Shown here in pieces: positions 6,163 through 41,291 of a stretch of DNA of 41,291 nt. How positions within the stretch are numbered: position 1 is the first letter of the stretch; every line of letters begins with the position of its first letter. Made by a program: the position numbers and the translations under genes. Location of the stretch: the NCBI GenBank assembly GCA_946629525.1, contig CAMOXU010000010.1, forward strand, positions 1 through 41,291. The letters run 5' to 3'. This DNA comes from an uncultured Clostridia bacterium. Lineage in GTDB: Bacteria; Bacillota; Clostridia; Lachnospirales; Lachnospiraceae. Under the pieces are notes generated by a model, which was not told where the DNA came from, did no database searches, and saw nothing but the letters and a program-made list of their open reading frames with translations.

Positions 6163-6474
6163 CGGGCGGATTTTATCCGGAAGTTGACGAATCCGTGCGG
6201 AATACGGTTTAAAAAACAGGAAAAATGGCAATAATGCAGGGGTGAACGGGTGCCGGCCGGCCGTAAATTTGTAGATAATCACGATAAAAACACTACCAAT
6301 AGATATTTGTTTGTGATAAAATCTCTAATAGTGACAGGTGCTTTAAAAATATGCCCAAAGAGGATGAGGGGTTCATCTTCAGGGGTATCCATCTGATCCG
6401 GCCGGAGGAGCGGCGGTACGGATCACAGTAAAGGACTCTGCATCCTATTAAGAACGCTCCAGAAGGAGAAAAAG
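6163..6474 (+). promoter_or_regulatory. Gap upstream of the HPr-dehydrogenase gene
   Basis: There is no gene in these 312 bases. A -10-like TAAAAT lies at 6317-6322 without a convincing -35. It sits inside an imperfect inverted repeat (ACTA-n5-AGAT at about 6292-6304, ATCT-n4-TAGT at 6321-6332), which could be an operator. No strong terminator is seen for the preceding gene. Confidence 0.35.
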
Positions 6475-7776
6475 TTGAAAACATTATCTTATGAAGTGAC
6501 GAATGCTCTTGGTATCCATGCACGCCCGGCAGCGCTTCTTGCACAGTGCTGTGTGGGACTTACCTCCCAGATCACCATCAAGTGCGGAGACAAGGCAGCG
6601 AACGGCAACAATGTCCTTCAGATTCTCGGTCTCCACGCAGTAAAAGGCTCCGTCCTTGAAATCACCGCTGAGGGCGGCGACGAAGATGCAGCTATCAGCG
6701 CTATTTCCAAGGTCCTTGAGGAGGAATTCAAGGAGAAGAAGAAAGTGGAAGTCTTAAAGATTGCTTTCTTCGGGACAAAGGATTATGACCGTATCTTCTT
6801 CAGCGAGCTCGCCAAGGATAAGGGCGAAGGAACCTACAACTGCGATATCAAGTATTTCGAGACCCGTCTTACACCTGAGACCGCTTATCTGGCAAAGGGA
6901 TTTGACGCTGTCTGCATCTTTGTCAACGATGAAGCTCCGAGAGCTGCTGTCGAGACCCTCAAGGAGTGCGGTGTCAGGCTGATCCTTCTGCGCTGCGCGG
7001 GCTTCAACAATGTTGATCTTCAGGCGGCGAAAGAGTGCGGCATCACTGTCATTCGTGTTCCGGCTTATTCTCCGTATGCGGTCGCCGAGCATGCCATGGC
7101 GATCATCACGACAGCCAACAGAAGGCTGCACAAGGCATATAACAAGGTCAAGGACAACAACTTCGCACTCAGCGGACTTCTCGGCGTTGACCTCCACAAT
7201 AAGGTCGCCGGCATCATCGGCACCGGCAAGATCGGCCAGTGCATGGCAAGGATCTGCAAGGGCTACGGCATGACCGTCATCGCATGGGATGCATTCCCGA
7301 ATCAGGGACTCGTAGACGAAGGCCTCCTCACGTATGTTGAGAAGGATGAGCTCTTTGAGAAGGCTGACCTGATCTCCCTCCATGCTCCGCTGATCATGGG
7401 CGATGGCGGAACATATCATCTGATCGACGCGAAGGCAATCGCGAAGATGAAGGACACTGCGATGCTCGTCAATACAGCCCGCGGCGGACTGATCGATACG
7501 GAAGCCCTGATCGATGCGCTGAAGGCCGGAAAGTTCCATGCAGTCGCGCTCGATGTTTACGAGGGCGAGGATGAGAACGTTTACACAGACCATTCGGATG
7601 ACTACCTGCAGCACTCGATCACAGCGAGACTGCTGATGTTCCCGAACCTTGTCCTGACATCTCATCAGGCATTCTTCACACGGGAAGCTCTTCAGGCAAT
7701 CGCGGCAGTTACGCTTGAGAATGCCCGCAACTTCAACGAAGGCAACCCGCTGGGCATCGGCGAGTGCAAAGCCTGA
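6475..7776 (+). CDS. HPr phosphocarrier domain fused to D-lactate-type 2-hydroxyacid dehydrogenase
   Basis: One uninterrupted 433-residue frame joins two modules. Residues 1-87 are an HPr domain with the active-site motif GIHARPAA at 13-20, placing the phosphorylatable His exactly at 15. The position of the regulatory HPr-kinase site is Asn46 (NGNNVLQILGL) instead of Ser46. After a charged linker (FKEKKKVEVL), residues 95-433 form a D-isomer 2-hydroxyacid dehydrogenase: NAD-binding GTGKIGQ at 249-255, catalytic Arg336 (NTARGG), Glu365 (DVYEGE) and His397 (TSHQAFF), with the same spacing as classical D-lactate dehydrogenases. The start is TTG, supported by AGAAGGAG 6 nt upstream. Pyruvate-to-D-lactate reduction is the likely reaction. 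The fusion itself is seen directly; a regulatory link to PEP-dependent phosphorylation is inferred. Confidence 0.92.
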   Translation: MKTLSYEVTNALGIHARPAALLAQCCVGLTSQITIKCGDKAANGNNVLQILGLHAVKGSVLEITAEGGDEDAAISAISKVLEEEFKEKKKVEVLKIAFFGTKDYDRIFFSELAKDKGEGTYNCDIKYFETRLTPETAYLAKGFDAVCIFVNDEAPRAAVETLKECGVRLILLRCAGFNNVDLQAAKECGITVIRVPAYSPYAVAEHAMAIITTANRRLHKAYNKVKDNNFALSGLLGVDLHNKVAGIIGTGKIGQCMARICKGYGMTVIAWDAFPNQGLVDEGLLTYVEKDELFEKADLISLHAPLIMGDGGTYHLIDAKAIAKMKDTAMLVNTARGGLIDTEALIDALKAGKFHAVALDVYEGEDENVYTDHSDDYLQHSITARLLMFPNLVLTSHQAFFTREALQAIAAVTLENARNFNEGNPLGIGECKA

Positions 7777-7844: not shown

Positions 7845-7878
7845 AAAGACCGCCGGTCCCTTAAGTCCGGCGGTCTTT
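7845..7878 (+). terminator. Terminator after the HPr-dehydrogenase gene
   Basis: A perfect 12-bp stem AAAGACCGCCGG / CCGGCGGTCTTT with a 10-nt loop lies 68 nt downstream of the stop. A similar GGACCGCCGGATC stem occurs at 16507-16550, so this is a recurring terminator sequence in this genome. Confidence 0.85.
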
Positions 7879-7912
7879 CTGCGTCCTGAGGATTGCGGCG
7901 GCGCGATCCGGA

Positions 7913-8019
7913 CGGTCCTTCGCGATCTGCACGGGGGGCGGTCCTTCGCGATCTGTACGGGGGGACGGTTCTTCGCAATCTGCGTGGCGGGACAGATGTT
8001 CGCGATCTGCACGGCGGAA
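7913..8019. repeat. Four GC-rich 26-27-bp tandem repeats
   Basis: Units start at 7913, 7939, 7966 and 7993 with a core CGGTCCTTCGCGATCTGCAC followed by a run of G. They lie in the 433-bp gap between the terminator at 7878 and the esterase gene. A short TTG-initiated frame (7893-8093) reads through them as a 9-residue repeat but has no convincing ribosome binding site, so I do not call it a gene. The rest of the gap (8020-8209) shows nothing else I can identify. Confidence 0.75.
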
Positions 8020-17117: not shown

Positions 17118-17146
17118 ATCTTATCAACTGTCAACAGTTTTATCAA
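17118..17146 (-). promoter_or_regulatory. Putative promoter of the leftward unknown gene
   Basis: On the minus strand TTGATA (17141-17146), 17-nt spacer, TAAGAT (17118-17123). The spacer contains the palindrome AACTGT-CA-ACAGTT (+ strand 17126-17139), which could be an operator. It overlaps the first 27-bp repeat unit. Confidence 0.45.
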
Positions 17147-17184
17147 GTGCAGGGATGTCAACAGTTTTATCAAGTGCAGGGATT
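17131..17184. repeat. Two direct 27-bp repeats in a divergent control region
   Basis: Units 17131-17157 and 17158-17184 differ only in the last base and abut each other. The core is TCAACAGTTTTATCAAGTGC. They lie between the leftward unknown gene and the helicase gene, overlap the leftward -35, and end at the putative helicase -35. They may be paired regulator sites or a recent slippage duplication. Confidence 0.85.
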
Positions 17185-28829: not shown

Positions 28830-29168
28830 GCTCGGCAGGACATGTGATCGCGGCTGGCGTTTACGCCAGGTGAGGAAAGTCCGGGCTCCGCAGGGCAGGA
28901 TGCCGGATAACGTCCGGCAGGGGTAACCCTCGGGAAAGCGCAACAGAAAAGAACCGCCGCTATGCGGTAAGGGTGAAAAGGCAGTGTAAGAGACTACCGC
29001 CTGGCTGGTAACAGGCAGGGCATATGCAAGCCCCATCCGGAGCAAGACCAAACAGAAGCAATACGGCTGCCCGTCGTGCTTCAGGCCGGTCGCTTGAGCC
29101 GTTCGGTAACGGACGGCCTGGATAGATGATCACACACGACAGAACCCGGCTTATCGTTCTGCCGAACT
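28830..29168 (+). ncRNA. rnpB: RNase P RNA (bacterial class A)
   Basis: Catalytic RNA of ribonuclease P, which removes tRNA 5' leaders. Hallmark conserved blocks are all present: GAGGAAAGTCCGGGCT near the 5' side, GCAACAGAAAAGAACCGCC, AGAGACTACCGC, and AGATGATCACACACGACAGA near the 3' side followed by ACCCGGCTTAT. The terminal helix P1 is visible: GCTCGGCAGGAC at 28830 pairs with GTTCTGCCGAAC at 29156-29167. Length is about 339 nt. The pattern looks like the ancestral A type rather than the Bacillus B type. Ends are estimated from P1 pairing. A short stem ATAAAGA/TCTTTAT follows at 29169-29187. Confidence 0.95.
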
Positions 29169-29255
29169 ATAAAGAACACCTCTTTATTCTGCCGCGCCGC
29201 GCAGAGTGCGAAGTATTTCGTGAACTGCATGGCTGCCGCGGGAGGAGCGGATACA

Positions 29256-41100: not shown

Positions 41101-41291
41101 CTGAGCGGCGGGACGGCCGATCCGGGCTTTTCGACCACGGAATCGACGATGGTCGGACCGGATCCCTTTGGCGGGTCACCTGCTGATGGCAGTTCGGATC
41201 CGTTCGGTGCAGGCGCGGGAAGCTTCGGCGAAAGCGCGGATCCGTTCGGTGCAGGCGCGGGAAGCTTCGGCGAAAGCGCGGATCCGTTCGG
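38152..41291 (+). CDS. Large pseudokinase with Hsp70-like domain and repeat regions (3' end missing)
   Basis: Open to the window edge; at least 1046 residues. Residues 9 to about 300 are a Ser/Thr-kinase fold: glycine loop IGEGDLGRVF (16-25), Lys41 in AALKV, APEL and DIYSLGMIMYVLLN. The catalytic HRD is replaced by S157-L158-S159 (ISLSVKPSNIL), removing the catalytic Asp, while K161, N164 and Asp177 (DAG for DFG) remain, so it is a predicted pseudokinase. Residues about 310-690 are acidic, Pro/Glu-rich and repetitive (22-residue and 12-residue repeats). Residues about 695-850 resemble a degenerate Hsp70 nucleotide-binding domain: AYVTIESGASKEDYEARRQM then LAAGLKSVTVLDDAAVNALG, and VIHDYSGFRSSLLRFD. 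The end holds perfect 14-residue DPFG repeats. There is no signal peptide and no membrane segment is visible. Confidence 0.85.
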   Translation, partial: METIKIWPGWEIKEQIGEGDLGRVFRIERTDAGVTREAALKVIGISGDAGEIKRLRKMGMDEESILEIYEDRKDQLLAAAARLSCLRTACGIASVEDIDSSWDEETSSWSIQIRSEFLESLDAYGKRAGEMLPEEIARMGRDISGALMTLEKEGIISLSVKPSNILRNSEGAYKLSDAGINEGTGRLAASKVGSIFSWDAPELVRAGNYDGTSDIYSLGMIMYVLLNRGQRPFLPEDGSMKRWMRIRIANEKRVSGEALPKPACGDEKLQEIVMKACAPNAQDRYQNAGELREALEYWLFGQKYGMAPAKASAIQESPIKSEAVELPSEEPQAAEAVQPGDPEVVNFAAPPEAEIPAGPHEADIFTEPAEEPVEAENVQLCGMGAEIFAATSEEPEAEIPAETHAAEDIFTEPAEEPEAEIPVETHAAEDIFTEPAEEPRAEIPALPEEEGILRVKADEEPESDADDAPWKVSLFKKTVEEPEIGTAPVLSEESDAGRQDPPETNFFGMPEQSVVPETPDLPEQPAVPETPDLPEQPAAEPEFGSGALFHMPDDMDVREEKAEEPDMIPRESLFGGFGEEDEATALVDDSDREALSRPESLFHMDNAEKSLDDSVSDFFRSAGDLDEEKPDNEAAPVTESRPEVPGTQESQAGGFFGWAGQGPSQEEDQYGATIVEAPDILPAREAEKEALPPTADLFIYIFQRDDRLYGIHSVVSENGGGARFKMKSDVLETGLFETILGNLKNRSSLPIENAYVTIESGASKEDYEARRQMVLAAGLKSVTVLDDAAVNALGIFAEELTGQEGDHYVLSVIHDYSGFRSSLLRFDTGDGTRISVLKSAPTGRVVDPMENPAFVMDRMLQDNCRVDGVDYSDRVERVLVDNRNRPLMGSVGQGSYDPYYNEAYGSIFRRANLYEGIEALKGLAYVSGCEKGEKKGVHLNLSVYEEPVRTQSEENYAGATEQKGSFVFPGAESSGREAEFGRDLSGGTADPGFSTTESTMVGPDPFGGSPADGSSDPFGAGAGSFGESADPFGAGAGSFGESADPF
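39328..39480 (+). repeat. 66-bp repeats within the pseudokinase gene
   Basis: Two nearly identical 66-bp units (39328-39393 and 39394-39459) and a partial third encode a 22-residue motif containing EEPEAEIP and HAAEDIFTEPA. A further pair of 36-bp units at 39694-39729 and 39730-39765 encodes VPETPDLPEQPA. All are in frame, so copy number could vary without disrupting the protein. Confidence 0.85.
41197..41291 (+). repeat. Perfect 42-bp tandem repeat at the window end
   Basis: Units 41197-41238 and 41239-41280 are identical, and a third begins at 41281 and is cut by the window. Each encodes DPFGAGAGSFGESA. Exact identity at DNA level points to recent or ongoing expansion. Confidence 0.95.

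Follow-up and report, generated by a model that had tools for sequence, protein, structure and literature searches.

What does an HPr phosphocarrier domain do at the front of a D-lactate dehydrogenase? The question is raised by one gene in the window, i.e. the whole stretch of 41,291 nucleotides analysed here from an uncultured Clostridia bacterium of the Lachnospiraceae. This HPr-D-lactate dehydrogenase fusion gene (6475..7776, forward strand) starts with a TTG codon at 6475, which is preceded by a purine-rich ribosome-binding site (AGAAGGAG), and encodes 433 amino acids before the stop codon at 7774-7776. The first-pass annotation had described these coordinates, a single continuous frame and the two domains; reading of the frame and Pfam searches found all of this correct, and the residue numbers that it gave for His15, Asn46, Arg336, Glu365 and His397 were confirmed in the 433-residue frame.

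The signals around the gene are faint. A possible extended -10 promoter, TGATAAAAT (6314..6322, forward strand), was picked out by eye and is a weak candidate, as it is absent from the list of the consensus promoter scan; strings resembling TGnTAwwAT were also seen by eye upstream of the fusion in Kandleria and Faecalibacillus. On the 3' side a GC-rich hairpin (7846..7877, forward strand), likewise recognized by eye, is a possible terminator; its loop of 10 exceeds the limit of the terminator scan, whose list does not contain it, and together the promoter and terminator scans gave nothing usable for the fusion gene. Shortly 3' of the hairpin lies a GC-rich tandem repeat of 27 bases in 3.9 copies (7910-8014), and the window also holds a perfect tandem repeat of 27 bases in 2 copies (17129-17183), a bacterial RNase P class A RNA (28832-29169) and another perfect tandem repeat, of 42 bases in 2.3 copies (41195-41291), which closes the contig and at which the assembly may have broken off. 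The neighbours of the fusion gene in the window encode NUDIX, TPR, esterase and M24 peptidase proteins, the last 1.9 kb downstream, while in Eggerthia a peptidase-like frame lies directly upstream of the fusion. A conserved operon was considered and rejected, as comparison by eye of seven fused loci with the window revealed no common set of neighbours.

The N-terminal part is recognized as HPr by Pfam (PTS-HPr, residues 5-82; 77.2 bits against a cut-off of 23, E-value 1e-21; 6487..6720, forward strand), and the NCBIfam HPr family TIGR01003 scores 65 bits on the fusion protein against its cut-off of 47.9. The closest solved chains for residues 1-87 are HPr-related proteins (3le1, 2.5e-15), and it is from this match in sequence that an HPr fold is predicted. 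His15 (codon 6517..6519), which Enzyme I is predicted to phosphorylate, lies in the motif GIHARPAA and is accompanied by Arg17, so that the window's fusion has the HPr active centre. At position 46, where many Bacillota HPrs have the serine phosphorylated by HPr kinase, the window's protein has an asparagine (codon 6610..6612) and thus does not have the HPr-kinase substrate residue. A cysteine at position 26 (codon 6550-6552) has a possible structural or redox role. The HPr domain is followed by a linker (residues 82-94; 6718..6756).

The remainder of the protein (residues 94-433; 6754..7773, forward strand) is an LdhA-type D-2-hydroxyacid dehydrogenase, as judged by Pfam and by matches to solved structures. 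It contains both dehydrogenase domains (2-Hacid_dh at residues 122-425, 2.1e-28; 2-Hacid_dh_C at 209-399, 4.8e-47) together with Arg336 (codon 7480..7482), Glu365 (7567..7569) and His397 (7663..7665). We take Arg336 to be catalytic by the rule of the family, and the spacings of 29 and 61 residues among the three are those of the D-lactate dehydrogenase catalytic set. The closest solved chains for residues 91-426 are LdhA-type D-lactate dehydrogenases (5z21, 5.2e-96), with 46-47% identity to the Pseudomonas aeruginosa and Fusobacterium nucleatum structures 5z20 and 5z21, and on this likeness to characterized enzymes the dehydrogenase part is expected to reduce pyruvate to D-lactate with NADH. 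The scores for the NCBIfam D-lactate dehydrogenase/VanH models lie below their cut-offs (at best 209 bits against 540 for vanH_gen and 180 against 356 for PRK08605), and the protein is not assigned to those families. A structure model of the whole fusion had a mean pLDDT of 84.7 and a pTM of 0.74, and the best 50 matches of each structure search of the PDB were dehydrogenases.

The genome of the window is a draft (82% complete, 163 contigs), and one could therefore suppose that an assembly or sequencing error had joined two separate genes. The first-pass annotation had called for the architecture to be sought across genomes, and it proved to be conserved. Within the window's genus the complete fusion is present in 15 of 42 genomes at 72-94% identity, with two further copies truncated by contig ends (residues 71-433 in G028, and residues 373-433 only, at a contig start, in G033). 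Elsewhere in the window's order it occurs in 2 of 391 sampled genomes (E-values up to 1e-150). In the order of Kandleria 71 of 294 drawn genomes gave a match, 70 of them from the HPr part onward and one (G719) from residue 109 only, where its 5100-base contig ends; in Kandleria's family the matches, in 16 of 43 genomes, are all full length. An even draw across the phylum found the fusion in 3 of 398 genomes, the window's own included. Among the matches listed from the collection of named genomes (80 loci kept) there are at least 42 fused loci, a count that leaves out L080, which is cut at a contig start and whose frame meets a stop after 85 residues. The isolates among the carriers are Kandleria vitulina DSM 20405, Eggerthia catenaformis OT 569, Faecalibacillus faecis SNUG30370 and Eubacterium pyruvativorans i6, and many of the carriers are, to judge from their record titles, gut and rumen bacteria. 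A joined frame that recurs in four named isolate species, in 15 of 42 genomes within the genus and in 70 of 294 drawn from Kandleria's order refutes an artefact, to which we assign a negligible probability.

The fusion also appears to have arisen once. In a quick maximum-likelihood tree of 108 dehydrogenase parts, of which 54 come from fusions, all the fused sequences group in a single clade with support of 100 on a long stem of 0.53, separate from the LdhA-type D-lactate dehydrogenases. The nearest unfused dehydrogenases, 12 rows that are 48-59% identical, make up its sister group. The only row inside the clade labelled as unfused, L020, is the contig-cut copy of G028, whose frame starts within the HPr domain. 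Neither a separate-gene ancestor nor a loss of HPr within the fused clade was seen among these 108 rows. The fusion thus exists, seems to go back to one event and has been retained in many genomes.

We then asked what has been conserved, using 55 distinct fusions (the duplicates L004, L015 and L016 of L006, L042 and L043 were dropped; the cut sequence L082 was excluded from the structure alignment, which has 54 rows, and from the tree). In the dehydrogenase part Arg336 is found in all 54 rows that reach its position, Glu365 is Glu in 52 and Gln in 2 of the 54, and His397 is present in all 53 rows with a residue there, L082 ending before this position and L077 lacking it by deletion. The two glutamines belong to E. 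pyruvativorans, a non-saccharolytic species (L075, 6001-7317), and its relative L070, both of which keep Arg336 and His397. In L077 (6001-7206), from a Selenomonas bovis metagenome-assembled genome, about 31 residues including the catalytic histidine are missing, by decay or by assembly error. In the HPr part Gly13, His15, Ala16, Arg17, Leu53 and Gly67 are invariant in the 55, and Pro18, Ala20, Gln24, Val47, Leu48 and Leu51 are each present in 51-54 of them (Pro18 in 53, Leu48 in 54); Cys26 is kept in 54. What the fused HPr retains in sequence is thus the active-centre loop and the hydrophobic face that we take to be the contact with Enzyme I.

Such conservation bears on one view of the domain, in which HPr is a passive appendage that assists folding or stabilizes the oligomer and is inherited from one ancient gene fusion. 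The HPr part does evolve faster than the dehydrogenase, with a higher dN/dS in 8 of 10 pairs and a mean column entropy of 1.49 as against 0.65 bits. However, purifying selection acts on it (HPr dN/dS 0.03-0.19 across the 10 pairs, the values being rough in 5 of them, where the HPr dS exceeds 1), and neither this nor His15 and Arg17 in 55 of 55 fusions would be expected of an appendage; both argue that the HPr domain is not there by chance. Nor was any clade member seen to have lost HPr, since in L020 and G719 contig ends account for the absence of all or most of the domain. We therefore consider a passive role very improbable.

The residue at position 46 differs for the most part between fused and separate HPrs. 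Of the 55 fusions 47 have Asn there, 5 Asp, 2 Arg and 1 Ser, whereas 24 separate HPrs from 13 of 14 genomes have Ser in 17 cases, Lys in 6, Arg in 1 and never Asn; Cys26, too, is present in only one of the 24 (L134). Kandleria, Eggerthia and Faecalibacillus each combine a separate HPr bearing His15 and Ser46 with a fused HPr bearing Asn46. By these comparisons of sequence the fused HPr looks built to carry phosphate at His15 and not at residue 46. The Ser46 signal of HPr kinase is one of fructose bisphosphate and ATP, and with no Ser46 in 54 of 55 fusions the enzyme would read the flux through Enzyme I instead. The first-pass annotation had proposed insulation of the fusion from HPr kinase. 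In its favour, Ser46 is missing from 54 of 55 fusions even though HPr kinase is encoded in 48 of 50 fusion genomes. The window's own genome speaks less clearly: L001, the separate HPr there that has the usual HARP loop (His15, Arg17), carries Lys46, and in this genome the fusion is therefore not alone in lacking Ser46. The same genome encodes a Crh-like protein with Lys15 and Ser46 (L002), an HPr-like protein with His15, Lys17 and Ser46 (L003) and a fifth, partial HPr match (L005). In the two fusion genomes with no HPr kinase match (G069 and G071, E. pyruvativorans and the S. bovis metagenome-assembled genome) escape from the kinase cannot be the point.

The separate HPrs also weigh on the idea that the fused domain is an additional working phosphocarrier that donates to EIIA proteins, its joining to the dehydrogenase merely fixing a dose ratio or expression. 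The intact active centre suits such a role. Yet 9 of 11 fusion genomes examined encode a separate HPr whose active centre has His15 and Arg17 (the separate HPrs read from G020 and G071 include none), which means that carrier capacity is already there, and the fused HPrs have diverged strongly, as their entropy indicates. We regard this explanation as improbable, if less so than a passive appendage.

Whether the partners needed for phosphotransfer are available was surveyed in 80 hand-picked genomes, 50 out of 91 with the fusion and 30 out of 49 without it. Enzyme I was matched in 47 of the 50 fusion genomes, the window's among them, and in 29 of the 30 unfused genomes; being equally common in the latter, it does not tell the two groups apart. 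The three fusion genomes with no Enzyme I match are G004 (a draft, 91% complete), G090 and G583 (no completeness given). HPr kinase is present in all 30 unfused genomes, and the copy counted for the fusion genome G002 is a fragment.

On the reading that we favour, and to which we would give an even chance, Enzyme I phosphorylates His15 of the fused HPr and thereby sets the activity of the dehydrogenase in cis. The fusion would then be a fermentative D-lactate dehydrogenase bearing its own PTS input domain. Phosphate would pass from PEP via Enzyme I to His15, which would be emptied by EIIA proteins or by back-transfer to pyruvate, and the phosphorylation state would shift the position or movement of HPr relative to the dehydrogenase and so alter pyruvate reduction. 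A short linker of nearly fixed length would underlie this coupling. During rapid uptake of PTS sugars His15 would be mostly unphosphorylated and the enzyme would work; at a high PEP/pyruvate ratio and low sugar flow, phosphorylated His15 would restrain it. The observations behind this reading are the architecture, its conservation and single clade, the presence of Enzyme I and EIIC alongside the fusion, the loss of Ser46 and the anticorrelation with L-lactate dehydrogenase; phosphotransfer, allosteric coupling and its direction are inferred. The interpretation offered in the first-pass annotation is in this sense partly supported. That the unphosphorylated form is probably the active one follows the analogy of Vibrio vulnificus, where pyruvate kinase A is bound by unphosphorylated HPr and then has a lower Km for PEP (PMC5987630). 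Three related D-lactate dehydrogenases are described as tetrameric and allosteric in behaviour (PMC4230899).

The main rival to cis control is that HPr serves to dock the dehydrogenase on Enzyme I, where the pyruvate released would be reduced and NAD+ regenerated, and the catalytic rate need not change. Since each phosphotransfer from PEP frees pyruvate at Enzyme I, a docked enzyme would sit at the source of PTS-driven pyruvate; when glucose is fermented through the PTS, roughly half of PEP becomes pyruvate by this route. Docking would require the same conserved face for Enzyme I and His15, and a sugar PTS is at hand, as EIIC was found in 50 of 50 fusion genomes. Against it, a docking device would tolerate linkers of varied length, yet the equivalent of the linker is 13 residues long in 46 of 55 fusions (range 12-22). 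Channelling would in addition be modest, given that Enzyme I and HPr make contact only briefly and that free pyruvate is a rapidly diffusing molecule. We judge docking to be unlikely, but less so than any other rival to control of the dehydrogenase in cis.

The place of the fusion in its hosts is suggested by the distribution of L-lactate dehydrogenase. An L-lactate dehydrogenase (NCBIfam TIGR01771) scored above the cut-off in 8 of 50 fusion genomes versus 26 of 30 unfused genomes (Fisher p 5e-10), and within the window's genus in 0 of 13 versus 6 of 10 (p 0.002), in a comparison of hand-picked genomes whose statistics ignore kinship and in which L-lactate dehydrogenase was counted without other D-lactate dehydrogenases. 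Adding weaker matches (E-values up to 1e-60) raises the first count to 13 of 50. Missing sequence does not explain the contrast, because nearly every one of these genomes gave matches to Enzyme I and HPr kinase. The fusion and L-lactate dehydrogenase can coexist, as in Kandleria; Eggerthia gave no L-lactate dehydrogenase match, and G099 has a second, unfused D-lactate dehydrogenase with 48% identity. The rarity of L-lactate dehydrogenase in fusion genomes suggests that many hosts may rely chiefly on the fusion to form lactate.

Several known systems resemble the protein in part. LdhA-type D-lactate dehydrogenases of Escherichia coli, P. aeruginosa and F. nucleatum match residues 91-433 only and have no HPr. 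With HPr (PtsH) the fusion shares the full domain and its His15/Arg17 active centre, and Crh, which keeps Ser46 and has no His15, is its converse; from both it differs in being joined to a metabolic enzyme and in having Asn46 in 47 of 55 cases against none of the 24 separate HPrs. In the multiphosphoryl transfer proteins (FPr/FruB and DhaM-type) HPr is likewise built into a larger protein, but Pfam finds in the fusion only PTS-HPr and the two dehydrogenase domains, which sets it apart from that group. LacS-type permeases carry a covalently joined EIIA domain that is phosphorylated by HPr and tunes the transporter in cis, so that they, too, have a PTS domain on a non-PTS protein; in the fusion it is an enzyme that bears the domain, and the domain is HPr. 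In V. vulnificus HPr also acts by its phosphorylation state at the PEP/pyruvate step, but as a separate protein, in trans and on a different enzyme (PMC5987630). In the passages considered of Comas et al. (2008), a survey of HPr fusions, the partners of HPr are other PTS domains (EIIA, EI), and the word "dehydrogenase" occurs 0 times in the main text (PMC2405797). A full-text search of open-licence PMC articles gave no description of an HPr-dehydrogenase protein, by title or start of abstract, among the matches listed. The architecture is probably listed in domain databases, and novelty would therefore lie in its recognition and meaning.

Bacillota L-lactate dehydrogenase is activated by fructose bisphosphate, and among the hosts of the fusion Eggerthia is a lactate producer. 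Kandleria has been called a potential lactate producer and, in the same paper, lactate formation by its relative Sharpea is tied to low methane yield, the D-lactate dehydrogenase gene of S. azabuensis being up 12-fold in low-methane sheep (PMC5069950). With somewhat less confidence than we give to cis control itself, and leaning slightly against it, we propose that PTS-coupled metabolic enzymes form a separate class, in which a step that spends pyruvate and NADH would be under cis control by Enzyme I-dependent phosphorylation, would link sugar-uptake flux directly to the outcome of fermentation free of HPr kinase, and would have replaced the fructose bisphosphate-activated L-lactate dehydrogenase in many Erysipelotrichales and one genus of Lachnospiraceae. 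As related gut bacteria keep the fusion, a sugar-uptake signal may directly control their lactate production. If phosphorylation of His15 does control the dehydrogenase, the flux of sugar transport would be wired to the lactate switch within one polypeptide, which would provide a simple, testable case of flux sensing and a natural design for coupling the state of the PTS to an enzyme.
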